Assembly: GCA_013334655.1 (NCBI GenBank)
Contig: JAAXXD010000013.1
Location: 1-41,195 of the forward strand
Direction: 5' to 3'
Source of the DNA: Chlorobaculum sp.
Lineage (GTDB): Bacteria > Bacteroidota > Chlorobiia > Chlorobiales > Chlorobiaceae
Length of the DNA: 41,195 bases
Both the position numbers and the translations under genes were made by a program. Of the stretch, positions 1 through 33,965 are shown one piece after another; the stretch's first letter is position 1, and each line of letters opens with the position of its first letter. The notes beneath the pieces are model-generated. The model did no database searches. It saw only the letters and a program-made list of their open reading frames with translations, and was not told the origin of the DNA.

Positions 1-31
1 GTCCTTTGTTTGAGTTGTAGCAAAGTAGTAA

Positions 32-150
32 GTGCAACGCACAGCGCTATGCTTCGGAAAAAGGGGCAAAAGGACTACTTAACGATTTACCATATCCGTT
101 ATGTGGAGAGGTTTGCAGTGATTCAAGCGTACTGCAAAATCAGATACTAC
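32..150 (-). promoter_or_regulatory. Upstream control region of an off-window gene, near copy of the PEP-CTERM gene leader
   Basis: This block closely matches 15083-15200, which lies upstream of the PEP-CTERM gene. Both contain the dyad TTTGCAGT-N11-ACTGCAAA (here 112-138). Both also contain the stretch around AAAGGACTACT(T/G)AACGATTTACC and a run of C/T reading CCCCTTTTTTCCGAAG on the minus strand. The window begins with GTCCTTTGTTT, which in the second copy directly precedes the ATG of the PEP-CTERM gene. I infer that a related, probably PEP-CTERM, gene starts just left of the window on the minus strand. The dyad could be an activator site; no sigma-54 -24/-12 box was recognised. Confidence 0.6.
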
Positions 151-12933: not shown

Positions 12934-14286
12934 TCAGACAGCGCTCATCCTCAAGGTTATAACAACGCTGACAAGAACCAGCACGCCAAGAAGCGTGGCA
13001 ATGATCAGGTAGGTTTTTCTTGACCACGCTTGTAAAATTCCGAAATTCAGCAACCGGCTTGCAATAATACCGGCGATGATACCGATTGCAATGCTTGCGA
13101 ATAACACCAGCGCATCGATCTTGTTCCATAGCAGCATGATCGAGAAAACCATGGCCGCAGAGATCAGCAACACCATGACGGCAAGATATATGCGACGAGT
13201 CAGCGTCGATGTAGCTCGAATATCGTAATGCTGCGTCCGCTCGATGGAACTCGATGATCCAAACCAGAGTCGAGGCAACCAAGCCATGCTGTAAAGCGTT
13301 CGTATAACAGCCGTTACCATCATGACCGCCAGTATGAACGAAAGAGATAGGCCAGAAGCAAGGAGAATATTTTTTCGGAATGCCTTTTTTGTTTTTTCAG
13401 TGTCAGGTTCCGGCAGTGCTACAAGTTTGCTTTTGGCATCGGCTTTCTTTAAATATTCGTCATAATAGGTGATTTTTGCGCTATTGAGCTCATCATTCAT
13501 GGCTTTTGCCATCGCAACGTTTTTTTGATTCGATGCGATCATCGCCATTGCGGCTCTTCTGGCCGACTCGCCTTCGAGTGGTGTCGGATATGCGGCACGC
13601 AACAGCAAAATTATGGAGATATTGTCTCCTTTGCGAGCGATAACCTGGGCAACGTTTGGGTTGATCTGGTTGAGAAAAGAAAGAACTTGTGGCGGAATTT
13701 TTTCAGAAGTCAGGGCAATGAGCGTTTTGTTGAAGGGGATTTTTTTTGCCCTCAGTTCATCAAGAAGAGTGTTGAGTGGCGCTCCGTTTACTGCCATTTT
13801 ATCGAGCGATTCCAGCAGCGGCATGTCTACACCGGGAAACAGCACTTCGTCGTAAACGAAAAGTTTGCGTCCGGCAAACAGTTGAGGGGTGTTTTGAACA
13901 ACAGATTCCGCCTGATCAGCAGTAACCGGCGGTTGATTCCCCATAATCTTGCTCTCTGCCAGACCCGCCAGTACGTTTTTCTGGGCGGCATACAGCGCAA
14001 TGCTGTAATCTGGACTGTTATCGAGCTTCATCTCCTTACCTTTTCCCGCAAGCAGTTCGAGACTAACAAGGTCGGAAAGAATACGTCTTTTCAGGTTGGC
14101 AGACTCTGCGTCGCTCATGTTCGGCATGGCAGAACGCTGATAGAGGTACTCGATCTGGCGCTTGGTTATTTCAACGCCGTTGACCACTGCCGCGACACCG
14201 CTATCTGATTCTTTGGATGTCTGCTGGGAACATCCTGCAAGGATGCCGAGCAGCAGGGCGAAGAGAAGAGAGGTGAGTTTTTTCAT
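12934..14286 (-). CDS. EpsD-like peptidyl-prolyl isomerase-type lipoprotein with C-terminal membrane segments
   Basis: A 450-residue protein. The start at 14286 gives a lipoprotein signal with lipobox LAGC after about 20 residues. The following VVNGVEITKRQIEYLYQR resembles the SurA/EpsD N-terminal chaperone helix region, and the segment around 140-260 is parvulin-like in layout but weak. Unlike classic EpsD it carries four hydrophobic helices in the last 150 residues (for example IYLAVMVLLISAAMVFSIML), so it may be anchored at both ends. EpsD-type proteins accompany exosortase/PEP-CTERM exopolysaccharide systems, and the gene next door encodes a PEP-CTERM protein on the same strand. A bidirectional-looking hairpin separates the two, so they are probably transcribed separately. 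Confidence 0.7.
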   Translation of the reverse strand: MKKLTSLLFALLLGILAGCSQQTSKESDSGVAAVVNGVEITKRQIEYLYQRSAMPNMSDAESANLKRRILSDLVSLELLAGKGKEMKLDNSPDYSIALYAAQKNVLAGLAESKIMGNQPPVTADQAESVVQNTPQLFAGRKLFVYDEVLFPGVDMPLLESLDKMAVNGAPLNTLLDELRAKKIPFNKTLIALTSEKIPPQVLSFLNQINPNVAQVIARKGDNISIILLLRAAYPTPLEGESARRAAMAMIASNQKNVAMAKAMNDELNSAKITYYDEYLKKADAKSKLVALPEPDTEKTKKAFRKNILLASGLSLSFILAVMMVTAVIRTLYSMAWLPRLWFGSSSSIERTQHYDIRATSTLTRRIYLAVMVLLISAAMVFSIMLLWNKIDALVLFASIAIGIIAGIIASRLLNFGILQAWSRKTYLIIATLLGVLVLVSVVITLRMSAV

Positions 14287-14393
14287 GCTGCGAATAAATT
14301 GGATTATGCTGTCATGGCCATAAATACACATGGAAGTAAAGATAACATCAACTGGTCTAAATTGCACTAACAAATACCAGTATATTACTTGTT

Positions 14394-14433
14394 AAACAAC
14401 GAAAACCCGGAATTTCCCGGGTCTTCGTTGTTT
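14394..14433 (-). terminator. Hairpin terminator after the PEP-CTERM gene
   Basis: A 17-bp stem with one mismatch (AAACAACGAAAACCCGG with CCGGGTCTTCGTTGTTT) and a six-base loop sits 28 bases beyond the PEP-CTERM stop. On the minus strand the arm ends in TTT, consistent with intrinsic termination. The symmetric A/T flanks could also serve the opposite strand. Confidence 0.8.
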
Positions 14434-14460: not shown

Positions 14461-14949
14461 TCAAAGGGCGGCTTCCTCTTTCTTGCTCTCATAGAGCTTG
14501 CGGCCACCGGCAAGCAGTCCGCCGATGCCAAGCAGCATCACCGTCGCAGGTTCCGGAACCGGGCCTTGCGTTGAGCCCGCACCACCCGTGCTGACATACC
14601 AATTTACAGGGCCGTTAGTATCTGGAGAGGTCACTTGGAAATTTGGTATTACCCAACTATCAATTACATTAACATTTACGTCCATCCAAGTCCATATGGC
14701 CGTATGTCCACCACCTACAAGCTCACCCGTCCATCCATCAGGTGAGTCAATACCGGTCATTACACCTGATGTCACAAGTGTAACATTAGTACTTGAAAAC
14801 AAGGTGTCTTTAACGATCTCAAGATCATAGGTCCAAGTGTTAGGGCCAGTCGAGGTGTTAACAAAAGTGATTGCTGCCATTGCCTGTGAAGGCGCGAAAC
14901 CGGTCATCAGGGCGATGCCGAGGCCGATGGTTGACAAGAGTTTTTTCAT
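14461..14949 (-). CDS. PEP-CTERM sorting-domain secreted protein
   Basis: A 162-residue exported protein. The start at 14949 begins MKKLLSTIGLGIALMTGF and ends in an AMA-type signal peptidase site. The mature part is short, acidic and rich in Thr, Asn, Trp and Gly. The C-terminus has the sorting tripartite signal: PVPEPATVMLLGIGGLL (PEP motif plus hydrophobic helix) followed by RK and a charged tail. Such proteins are cut and exported by an exosortase, which is not in this window. The leader (15083-15200) matches the left end of the window, so at least two genes share this control region. The mature part matches no enzyme I recognise. Confidence 0.9.
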   Translation of the reverse strand: MKKLLSTIGLGIALMTGFAPSQAMAAITFVNTSTGPNTWTYDLEIVKDTLFSSTNVTLVTSGVMTGIDSPDGWTGELVGGGHTAIWTWMDVNVNVIDSWVIPNFQVTSPDTNGPVNWYVSTGGAGSTQGPVPEPATVMLLGIGGLLAGGRKLYESKKEEAAL

Positions 14950-15082
14950 GTTCGTCCTTTGTTTTTGTTGTGGCAAACTGCTTTACCGACAAAACAACCC
15001 GTGCGCGATACAATTACGTTTTCTTTTCGTACATCTTTCGAAAAGTAAAAAAAAACACGCAAATCGTCACTTTATCAGTAAA

Positions 15083-15200
15083 AGCAACGCAAACCGCTGT
15101 TCTTCGGAAAAAAGGGGTAAAAGGACTACTGAACGATTTACCTGTCCGCTCTGTCGAGAGGTTTGCAGTGAATCAAGGGTACTGCAAAATCGGATACTAC
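15083..15200 (-). promoter_or_regulatory. Conserved upstream block of the PEP-CTERM gene with dyad operator
   Basis: This block is about 118 bases long and aligns with 32-150 almost end to end. It contains the dyad TTTGCAGT-N11-ACTGCAAA at 15162-15188 and a second inverted pair, GGTAAA...TTTACC, around 15116-15142. Between the block and the ATG lie 130 bases, compared with about 30 bases to the window edge in the first copy; the GTCCTTTGTTT just upstream of the ATG is shared too. I infer a common regulator binding the dyads. Confidence 0.6.
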
Positions 15201-15388
15201 ATGTGGATGTTATAAAATATTATTCAGTTCCAAAAGAAATATCTTGATGGTTTCGATGATACATATGTCAAGAAGTTTGAGGAAATATATTAATTATATG
15301 CTTTCTGGTGCATCAAAGCGTTTTTTTTATTTCTCAAAAATATTATTTCTACGTTTCGACACCTGGTTTCGTGACAGATCATCACTGT

Positions 15389-15478: not shown

Positions 15479-15745
15479 TTACTTCTCCTCCCGTTTCACG
15501 CTGGCTACGAACCCTTCCGGGCGTCCTTCTTTAGGCAGGCCGAGAATCTGGCGGGCGCGGTCGAGGGCGTCGTCGATGTTGCCGTGGATGTTCTCTTCGC
15601 CGATCATATCGGCCAGGCCGTATTGCTGCATGGCGAAGATCGGCTGGGCGTGGACGCCGGAGAGGATCAGCTTCGTGCCGGTTTTCTGGCAGTCCGCGGC
15701 CAGCTCCTTCAGCATGTTCAGGCCGACGGCGGTGCTGGCGCTGAA
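15479..15745 (-). pseudogene. SulP-family anion permease, C-terminal STAS remnant
   Basis: Only the last 85-90 residues remain. STAVGLNMLKELAADC, GTKLILSGV and ADMIGEENIHGNIDDAL are the STAS domain that ends SulP sulfate/bicarbonate permeases. The reading frame continues upstream as nonsense, overlapping a truncated prenyltransferase gene on the other strand. The permease core (10-14 helices) is missing from the window. The gene therefore lost its 5' part at the junction near 15740. Its terminator remains. Confidence 0.82.
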
Positions 15746-31302: not shown

Positions 31303-32595
31303 ATGGCAAATACGAAACAGTACCATCCCGAAACCCTCGCCCTTCATGCAGGCCAGCAGATCGACCCGACCTTTTCGCGCGGCGTGCCGGTCTACCGCAC
31401 CAGCTCGTACCTTTTCAAAAACACCGAACACGCGGCTAACCTCTTCGCGCTGAAGGAGTTGGGCAACATCTACACGCGCCTGATGAACCCGACCACCGAC
31501 GTGCTCGAACAGCGCATCACGCAACTCGAAGGGGGCGCGGCCTCGGTGGCGCTCGCCTCCGGCACCTCGGCGATTTTCTACGCCATCATCACGCTCGCCG
31601 AAGCGGGCGACAACATCGTCTCGGCCAACAACCTTTACGGCGGCACCTACACGCAGTTCGACGCTATCCTGCCGAAGCTCGGCATCACGGTGAAGTTCGT
31701 CGATCCCTCCGATCCGGCGAACTTCGAGAAGGCTATTGACGACAAGACGCGGGCGGTCTTCATCGAAACCATCGGCAATCCGGTGCTCGACTACACCGAC
31801 GTCCGCGCCGTGGCCGACGTGGCGCATCGCAACGGTCTGCCGCTCATCGTGGACGCCACCTTCACCACCCCCTACCTGCTCCGCACCATCGATCTCGGCG
31901 CGGACATCGTCGTCAACTCACTCACCAAGTGGATCGGCGGCCACGGCGCGGGTATCGGCGGCATCATCACCGACGCCGGGCGCTTCGACTGGAAAGCCGG
32001 ACGCCATCCGCTCTTCACCGAACCGGACGCCAACTACCACGGCCTGCGCTGGGCGCTCGATCTGCCGGAGCCGCTCGCGCCAATCGCCTTCGCGCTCCGG
32101 GTGCGCACCGTGCCGCTCCGGAACCTCGGCGCGGCGATCTCGCCAGACAACTCGTGGATCTTCATCCAGGGCGTCGAAACCCTGCCGGTTCGCATCGTGC
32201 GCCACTCGGAAAACGCTCTCAAGGTGGCCGAACACCTGAAGAACCACCCGAAAGTCGCCTGGGTGCGCTACCCCGGCCTGCCGGACGACCCGTCGTACGA
32301 ACTCGCCTCGCGCGACCTGAAGCACGGCTTCGGCGGCATGGTGGTGTTCGGCGTGAAAGGCGGCTACGACGCGGCAGTGAAGATCATCGACACCATCGAC
32401 CTCTTCTCGCACCTGGCCAACGTCGGCGACGCCAAGAGCCTGATCCTGCACCCCGCCAGCACCTCGCACAGCCAGCTCACCGAGGAGCAGCGTCTGCAAA
32501 GCGGCCTGTCTTCAGACCTCATCCGCCTTTCGGTAGGACTGGAGCACCCGGACGACCTCATCGCAGCGCTCGACGACGCGCTGGCGGGGGCGTGA
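31303..32595 (+). CDS. metY: O-acetylhomoserine sulfhydrylase
   Basis: A 430-residue PLP enzyme making homocysteine from O-acetylhomoserine and sulfide. The N-terminus ETLALHAGQQIDPTFSRGVP and the Lys209 site [16 protein letters not shown] mark the MetY branch. It closes the cysteine/methionine operon 68 bases after the desulfurase. A perfect hairpin follows. Its 3' half has been duplicated downstream (33412-33757). Confidence 0.94.
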   Translation: MANTKQYHPETLALHAGQQIDPTFSRGVPVYRTSSYLFKNTEHAANLFALKELGNIYTRLMNPTTDVLEQRITQLEGGAASVALASGTSAIFYAIITLAEAGDNIVSANNLYGGTYTQFDAILPKLGITVKFVDPSDPANFEKAIDDKTRAVFIETIGNPVLDYTDVRAVADVAHRNGLPLIVDATFTTPYLLRTIDLGADIVVNSLTKWIGGHGAGIGGIITDAGRFDWKAGRHPLFTEPDANYHGLRWALDLPEPLAPIAFALRVRTVPLRNLGAAISPDNSWIFIQGVETLPVRIVRHSENALKVAEHLKNHPKVAWVRYPGLPDDPSYELASRDLKHGFGGMVVFGVKGGYDAAVKIIDTIDLFSHLANVGDAKSLILHPASTSHSQLTEEQRLQSGLSSDLIRLSVGLEHPDDLIAALDDALAGA

Positions 32596-32629
32596 GAAAA
32601 GGATAGTAGAGAAACATCATTTTTCGAAA

Positions 32630-32662
32630 ACCCGGCGATACTCTTGACAGAGATCGCCGGGT
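32630..32662 (+). terminator. Terminator of the sulfur operon
   Basis: ACCCGGCGAT (32630-32639) pairs with ATCGCCGGGT (32653-32662) around a 13-base loop, 34 bases after the metY stop. An eroded copy of the same hairpin occurs near 33780-33820 in the duplicated segment. Confidence 0.75.
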
Positions 32663-32713
32663 ATCGACAATTCCATCGTAGCGGAAGCAAAAAAAATGAG
32701 GGCTGATCGATTG

Positions 32714-33010
32714 TCACAGATCAAACTCTTCGGAACGCAGTGCCCGGTGCCCTTCAAAAACAGTTAGAATGACAACCTGCGTCGGGTTAACTCTGTACAC
32801 TATCCGGTAATTCCCGACAAGTATCTCCCGGATGTCAAACCGTGAAAACTCGGGAACCACTCTTCCCATTTCAGGAAACGATGCAATCGAATCGCCTTTG
32901 TCGAGAAGCAACTCAATAAAAGCGAAAGCCCGCTCAGGATGGTCCTGCGCGATAAATCGCTCGATTTCATCCAGCTTTCCGAGAGCTTCGGATGACCAGA
33001 CTACTTTCAT
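32714..33010 (-). CDS. RelE/ParE-family toxin
   Basis: A 98-residue protein beginning MKVVWSSEALGKLDEIERFI with the ParE/RelE core (DIREILVGNYRIVYRV, GHRALRSEEFDL). Members either cut ribosome-bound mRNA or poison gyrase; the sequence does not decide which. Its ATG overlaps the stop of the antitoxin by 4 bases (ATGA), so translation is coupled. Downstream it converges with metY, sharing the region of the metY terminator. Confidence 0.9.
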   Translation of the reverse strand: MKVVWSSEALGKLDEIERFIAQDHPERAFAFIELLLDKGDSIASFPEMGRVVPEFSRFDIREILVGNYRIVYRVNPTQVVILTVFEGHRALRSEEFDL

Positions 33011-33297
33011 GGCTTTCTGGAAGCTCTTTTTTCCGCAAGCTTCGTTCGAACCTCCTCAGTACTATACACCTCCCCGGCCTCTTCCGCCGTCAGTCCTTGC
33101 TCTATGGATTCTGTAAATTGTTTGCTGTAAACAAGATTGTCATACTCCTCGGGCGACAGAAGAACGCCAGCAGGTCTGCCGTTCTGGGTAATAATCAGCG
33201 GATGACCCGTTGCCTGAACATTTTTCAGACAGGTAGAAATGCCCGTCTTGAACTCACCCAACGGGATAATATCGCTTGAAATCCGAATGCTTTTCAT
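33007..33297 (-). CDS. Phd/YefM-family antitoxin
   Basis: A 96-residue protein. The N-terminal YefM-like DNA-binding fold reads IPLGEFKTGISTCLKNVQATGHPLIITQNGRPAGVLLSPEEY in pieces, and the C-terminal acidic helix (residues about 65-90) neutralises the toxin. First gene of the pair, start at 33297 on the minus strand. The upstream gap to 33412 is expected to hold the autoregulated promoter. The module lies between intact metY and a decayed partial copy of metY. Confidence 0.9.
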   Translation of the reverse strand: MKSIRISSDIIPLGEFKTGISTCLKNVQATGHPLIITQNGRPAGVLLSPEEYDNLVYSKQFTESIEQGLTAEEAGEVYSTEEVRTKLAEKRASRKP

Positions 33298-33411
33298 GAT
33301 ACGAAGAGATTTAATTCAGAGTCGTATTCAGACCATTATTCACACCTTAATATAGCCATCGATTCAGGAGCACCAAACAATTCCCGGCTTCATAGCTGAC
33401 CAGATTGCCGG

Positions 33412-33757
33412 TTGAACTTCCACCCCGTACCTGCTGCGCACCATCGATCTCGGCGCGGACATTGTCATCAACTCGCTCACCAAGTGGATCGGCGGCATGG
33501 TGGTGTTTGGCGTGAAGGGCGGCTACGACGCGGCGGTAAAGATCATCGACACCATCGACCTCTTCTCGCACCTCGCCAACTTCGGCGACATCAAGAGCCT
33601 GATCCTGCACCCCGCCAGCCAGATGACCGAAGAGCAACGCATCGCCAGCGGCCTGTCAAGCGACCTCATCCGCCTCTCGATCGGCCTGGAACACCCCGCG
33701 ACGACCTCATCACCGCCCTCGACGATGCCCTCGCGGGGGGGGGTGAAAACAGGATAG
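33412..33757 (+). pseudogene. Partial tandem copy of metY with internal deletion
   Basis: Residues of intact MetY from about 187 to 213 ([14 protein letters not shown] then NSLTKWIGG) are followed directly by [15 protein letters not shown], which lies about 130 residues later in the intact protein. The join falls at a shared CGGCGGC, which points to a slip or recombination between short repeats. The end shows a one-base shift in GLEHP(R)[14 protein letters not shown]. The copy continues through a decayed terminator. It is not functional. Confidence 0.9.
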
Positions 33758-33829
33758 TTGGAAAACATCATCTTTCGAGAATCCGGCGATAATCCTGACA
33801 GAGATCGCTGGGTATCTTAAACTTCATTG

Positions 33830-33965
33830 AAGCTGAAGCCCATTGTATATAATACAGTTTTACGAGAGCTTCAGATACCCAGACAAGGTTCATGGTTCTT
33901 AATCCGCGTCTTTTCATCAATTTTTGTTCTAACCTCCTCATTTCTGTGCAGCTCCATGCATATTT
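33830..33965 (-). pseudogene. Remnant of a second toxin-antitoxin module
   Basis: On the minus strand NEEVRTKIDEKTR matches the antitoxin tail (TEEVRTKLAEKRA). It is followed by MNLVWVSEALVKL, matching the toxin start (MKVVWSSEALGKL). The remnants are separated from the partial metY copy by the decayed hairpin, just as in the intact pair. The module therefore belongs to the same duplicated segment. Confidence 0.8.

Follow-up and report, generated by a model that had tools for sequence, protein, structure and literature searches.

A conserved 117-nt block in front of a single Chlorobaculum PEP-CTERM gene family, tentatively read as a leader that masks the ribosome-binding site

A block of about 117 nt precedes the genes of a single small PEP-CTERM family in Chlorobaculum, the family whose proteins begin MKKLLSTIGLG..., and it is associated with that family one to one and is conserved more strongly than the coding sequence it precedes. 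We tentatively read the block, with a little less than an even chance of being right, as the 5′ leader of this family, which was duplicated along with the gene and which would act as RNA by masking the ribosome-binding site (RBS).

The window analyzed here is the whole of contig C108 (41,195 nt) of a draft Chlorobaculum genome (G000; 146 contigs, 2.43 Mb, 84.5% complete). The initial annotation had described a shared block of ~118 bases with an exact dyad, a GGTAAA/TTTACC pair, a C/T-rich tract, and a gene-start piece, GTCCTTTGTTT, with a spacing to the gene that differs by about 100 bases between the two copies, and all of these elements were recovered. In a BLAST search of the whole genome with the second copy as the query, the copies at 27–150 and 15084–15210 (both on the minus strand) are 86% identical over 124 bases (E = 1.1e-34; 86–89% for the 117-nt block itself). 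A separate 24-base match at 1–24 is the gene-start piece, and beyond these two matches nothing in G000 scored better than E ~1. The dyad TTTGCAGT-N11-ACTGCAAA is exact in both copies, and the possibility that it recurs at random, raised in the initial annotation, is contradicted by a scan of the 2.43-Mb genome that returned only the two block sites: at up to two mismatches there were no further sites and none for a reversed-pattern control, and at up to three mismatches there were none within the window, where 0.18 were expected. The measured difference in block-to-gene spacing is ~97 bases and reflects a deletion in the unconserved sequence that separates the block from the RBS.

Table 1. Coordinates of the block copies, their elements, and the neighboring genes in the window
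Feature	Position	Strand	Remarks
Conserved block, copy w1	34..150	-	117 nt; putative +1 at 150; covariance-model score 137.5 bits
Conserved block, copy w2	15084..15200	-	Putative +1 at 15200; among seven copies in five genomes
Dyad TTTGCAGT-N11-ACTGCAAA, copy w1	112..138	.	Exact; only two in genome
Dyad TTTGCAGT-N11-ACTGCAAA, copy w2	15162..15188	.	Exact; only two in genome
Invariant AGTCCTTTT, candidate anti-Shine-Dalgarno, copy w1	68..76	-	7/7 copies; complementary to AAAGGAC
Invariant AGTCCTTTT, copy w2	15119..15127	-	Predicted pairing with 14954-14960, probability 0.93
AAAGGAC, Shine-Dalgarno-like, of gene past contig end	1..7	-	Aligns with RBS of six relatives
Unconserved leader spacer	14961..15083	-	~123 nt here; ~26 nt in w1; 30-120 nt in relatives
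-10-like TAACAT, 6 nt upstream of block	15207..15212	-	TAnnnT at same distance in 6/7 copies; not called by consensus promoter scan
PEP-CTERM gene, 162 aa, MKKLLSTIGLGIALMTGF...	14464..14949	-	TIGR02595 19.7 bits, cut-off 16
Shine-Dalgarno AAAGGAC	14954..14960	-	Direct reading; conserved among relatives
Terminator-like inverted repeat AACGAAGACCCGGGAAATTCCGGGTTTTCGTT after PEP-CTERM gene	14394..14427	.	Terminator scan; same repeat behind G008 (both), G017, and G005 genes
EpsD-family peptidyl-prolyl isomerase gene, native downstream neighbor	12937..14373	-	TIGR02925 E=1.5e-73

To determine the distribution of the block, 98 genomes of the order were searched at the DNA level, with a covariance model, and with a protein-family profile. 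The block occurs in seven copies in five Chlorobaculum genomes, with covariance-model scores of 125–160 bits: two copies are in the window, G008 has a tandem pair, and a single copy occurs in each of G017, G005 (Chlorobaculum sp. 24CR), and G019, a complete genome of 2,154,946 bases. Past these seven, the covariance-model search of the 98 genomes gave nothing better than E = 0.1. Six of the seven copies sit directly 5′ of the genes of the MKKLLSTIGLG... family and between them precede every one of these genes; the seventh is the copy at the contig edge. The profile search arrived at the same five genomes and at six genes, all of which have the block (the gene in G019 contains an internal TAG), together with one weak match in a different PEP-CTERM gene. 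As the block stands in front of one family only, gene by gene, the 5′ region has been co-duplicated with the gene. Two PEP-CTERM genes can share such a block without belonging to a regulon, since a leader travels with its gene on duplication.

Segment-wise alignment of the copies gave identities of 79–97% for the block, against 70–77% for the gene and 52–88% for the 60 nt upstream, so that no other part of the locus is as constrained as the block. The leader stretch between the block and the RBS, which ranges from ~26 to ~123 nt, is mostly unalignable. Between the tandem copies of G008, identity is 97% in the block and 72% in the gene. The outer arms of the dyad are asymmetric in the homologous copies, with the left TTT changed to TTA, TAA, or AAT and one copy reading GTAGT, while strong conservation is seen in the 11-base “spacer” and in the bases 3′ of the dyad; conservation therefore tracks the whole ~117-nt block and not the palindrome. 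The second-longest invariant run in the block, AGTCCTTTT, is unchanged in all seven copies and is complementary to the Shine-Dalgarno (SD) sequence AAAGGAC.

Upstream DNA is homologous in six copies, and in each of them a hexamer TAnnnT, whose T, A, and T are invariant and whose other bases vary, ends exactly 6 nt before the first G of the block, which is the −10 position for a start at that G. The −35 region at the block edge is poor, and a consensus sigma-70 promoter scan found nothing there. Since only ~26 nt separate the block from the RBS in w1, there is no room for a promoter between them, and this observation, together with the placement of the hexamer, suggests that the block forms the first ~117 nt of the transcript. 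Transcription would then begin with the block's first base, which is the first G in GTAGTATC (minus strand, positions 15200 and 150 of the window). None of the papers searched mentions Chlorobaculum together with PEP-CTERM or gives C. tepidum start sites of use here.

According to the mechanism that we propose, the block would have been copied along with the gene, as an ectopic copy in the genome of the window and as a tandem copy in G008, and the leader would act as RNA. The invariant AGUCCUUUU would pair with the SD sequence AAAGGAC and hide it, switching translation off, and a GGUAAA/UUUACC hairpin would free the SD sequence, switching translation on. As the hairpin and the SD pairing draw on the same U-run, the two pairings are mutually exclusive. 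Such a two-state translational switch remains a hypothesis, the most specific one for the block.

Several calculations bear on the predicted pairing. About 0.001 chance matches to GTCCTTT would be expected among the invariant 7-mers, before allowing for the post hoc choice of this sequence. Folding assigns the SD:anti-SD pairing a probability of 0.89–0.95 in four of the six full leaders, and the overall SD pairing of those leaders was reached in 0–4 of 60 shuffles each; in the shuffled leaders the RBS is paired with anything at a mean of 0.57–0.66 (long leaders), as U-rich leaders fairly often pair purine-rich RBSs by chance. By forced energies, masking is preferred in four leaders, by 4–11 kcal/mol, and in leader G008b the two pairings come out about equal. 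In one copy the RBS changes from AAAGGAC to AGAGGAC, and the pairing is kept as G-U. The pairing is not favored in G008b or in w1, whose sequence ends before the ATG, and the RBS of the TAG-interrupted G019 copy is altered and masked by another hairpin. The folding energy of the whole block is no better than that of shuffles (z about −0.2 to −0.4). Covariation does not exceed that of shuffles in an alignment of only seven related sequences, though 94.7% of its cells are paired; an RNAalifold structure and two hand-drawn helix sets gave no covariation signal. When four copies or regions of the block and the entire window were searched against Rfam, there was no match at the gathering score, and at E up to 10 there were chance-level matches only. 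We consider it improbable that the block is both the aptamer and the switch of an undescribed class of riboswitch-like leaders that masks the RBS and so controls the surface PEP-CTERM proteins of green sulfur bacteria, perhaps in response to a second messenger, like the c-di-GMP riboswitches that precede PEP-CTERM genes elsewhere.

A transcribed RBS-masking leader is favored here over control at the DNA level, in which the block would be a promoter/operator region bound by a transcription factor at the GCAGT-N11-ACTGC dyad and neighboring elements, with gene and operator co-duplicated. Operator control is nevertheless a real possibility, if a lesser one: the dyad is exact in both window copies, the whole block is strongly conserved, and the weak −35 could call for an activator. 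The dyad is absent elsewhere in the genome, however, so the putative factor would serve only the MKKLLSTIGLG... family; the loss of symmetry in the outer arms among the relatives and the conservation of the “spacer” also argue against an operator, as does the position of the best −10-like element, which lies upstream of the block and not inside it. It is also conceivable, and in our judgment unlikely, that the block is simply the shared 5′ sequence of recently duplicated genes and holds no special regulatory device. Such plain paralogy is consistent with the restriction of all copies to one gene family, with the tandem duplicate in G008, and with the truncated neighboring STAS fragment that accompanies copies, but it does not account for a block that is more conserved than the coding sequence and the immediate flanks both across species and between tandem paralogs, a pattern that gene conversion could mimic only within one genome.

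The distribution of the block weighs on two further readings, both of them very improbable. The initial annotation had predicted a PEP-CTERM regulon with a common transcription factor, and a regulon box shared by the PEP-CTERM genes of a genome, of the sigma-54/PrsR type or for a new factor, does have a parallel in the box common to Proteobacterial PEP-CTERM genes (PMC1569441). The dyad scan, however, gave two block sites in G000 against 16 PEP-CTERM matches, and the upstream regions of six unrelated PEP-CTERM genes with readable starts in this genome contain none of the elements of the block, so that the genome-wide search largely refutes the prediction; the common factor is neither demonstrated nor required. 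A sigma-54 box (−24(GG)/−12(GC)) was considered and rejected, as the block holds only matches with three mismatches, no commoner than chance (145 in the window, 179 expected). The other reading, in which the block is a mobile repeat able to move without the gene, could draw on the location of w1 at a new site, where homology begins at the block edge. It is likewise largely refuted, since there are no orphan copies of the block without a family gene in the 98 genomes and the w1 flank has no extra genomic copies. For the same reason, the “movable module” suggested by the differing spacing gives way to co-duplication with the gene, as the block is never found apart from its family.

Among the closest known systems is the upstream region of Proteobacterial PEP-CTERM genes, which contains a sigma-54 motif and a PrsR site and is reported from Proteobacteria only (Haft et al. 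2006, PMC1569441); RpoN dependence has been demonstrated for pepA (PMC9850573). Like that region, the block is a conserved cis element that precedes single-gene PEP-CTERM units and lies within a long intergenic region; unlike it, the block lacks a −24/−12 signal, belongs to another taxon, and serves one gene family instead of most PEP-CTERM genes. In strain GP59, c-di-GMP riboswitches precede clustered or neighboring PEP-CTERM genes (PMC12530212). The leader RNA proposed here would similarly be repeated before neighboring PEP-CTERM paralogs, and the GP59 riboswitches are, in functional terms, a precedent for leader RNAs of PEP-CTERM genes; no Rfam c-di-GMP aptamer was detected in the block, however, and RNA action is in our case a proposal. 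A visual likeness of GCAAACC-UCUC-GACA-GAG-GGAC to the c-di-GMP-I core was dismissed because neither G008 nor G005 conserves the hairpin and no model matches. With SD-masking leaders (translational riboswitches, thermosensors, and autoregulatory leaders) the block shares an invariant anti-SD, a competing hairpin, and an RBS that is predicted to be masked, and it differs from the known examples in having no Rfam family match or covariation support. Given the absence of both a sigma-54 signal and a c-di-GMP aptamer, we file the block in neither family but as a lineage-specific, unclassified 5′ leader/control element. Many non-Proteobacterial PEP-CTERM genes have long unexplained upstream regions in which further regulatory elements were expected, and in C. 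tepidum two PEP-CTERM domains but no EpsH were noted (Haft et al., PMC1569441). The sharply bounded 117-nt block is an element of the anticipated kind in the genus that includes this laboratory green sulfur bacterium, and it comes with a specific testable mechanism, anti-SD masking.

The gene that follows the first block copy is unreadable because window position 1 is the end of the contig. The PEP-CTERM protein search located a C-terminus of the family, GGLLAGGRKLYESRK, followed by a stop and a terminator-like repeat, at the right end of contig C47 (3852–3908 of 3908). Also on C47 are a gene for a phosphoribosyltransferase and a conserved ORF, and in G017 (contig C191) these two immediately precede acetate kinase, which in the window is the gene right of the first block copy. 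The syntenic order C47, gap, C108 places a PEP-CTERM paralog where the first block copy predicts one, and the gene left of the window is most likely a paralog of the MKKLLSTIGLG... family, as judged from synteny and not from read-through. The claim that the block is a control region common to two genes holds in the narrower form of a gene-proximal control or leader element, the left gene being most likely a PEP-CTERM gene. Homology of the ectopic copy (window 1–150 and C47:3768–3908) runs from approximately the putative +1 to just past the terminator, or about one transcript, with imprecise boundaries. An RNA-mediated retrocopy was considered as the origin of w1, with the gene body in the assembly gap and with diverging flanks.

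The protein encoded downstream of the second copy has the C-terminal PEP motif, hydrophobic stretch, and basic tail of PEP-CTERM proteins, and four of its relatives likewise pass the TIGR02595 cut-off. The native site of the family gene lies between the genes for a SulP transporter and for an EpsD-family peptidyl-prolyl isomerase. The G000 genome has its own SulP gene end on contig C51 (1–740, L140), where it adjoins an integrase-like transposase gene (named by eye) at the place that the PEP-CTERM gene occupies in the relatives; the native SulP/PEP-CTERM/EpsD locus is therefore broken up in G000. At 15724–15731 of the window there is an abrupt junction with eight shared bases. On one side of it is a truncated STAS fragment of SulP (minus strand) and on the other a UbiA prenyltransferase that lacks its N-terminus (plus strand); the junction is either a genuine rearrangement or a chimera from assembly or amplification. 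The STAS region resembles that in C51 (94%) and in the relatives. A STAS-only SulP fragment is also present between the two tandem PEP-CTERM genes of G008 (contig C72; L042:7050–7328), the duplication unit thus comprising the SulP 3′ end, the leader, and the PEP-CTERM gene.

One match to the exosortase family PF09721 was found in G005 and none in G000 (an 84.5% complete draft), G008 and G017 (incomplete drafts), or G019 (a complete genome). PEP-CTERM proteins are encoded without a PF09721 match in these last four genomes, in G019 with the family gene interrupted by its internal stop. Elsewhere in the window, a gene-sized region at 31865–33839 is partially duplicated in tandem (repeat families D1–D4 and D6, spacing ~1.15–1.56 kb, 77–94% identity), a duplication that takes in a 430-aa ORF (31303–32595) and a truncated second copy of it.
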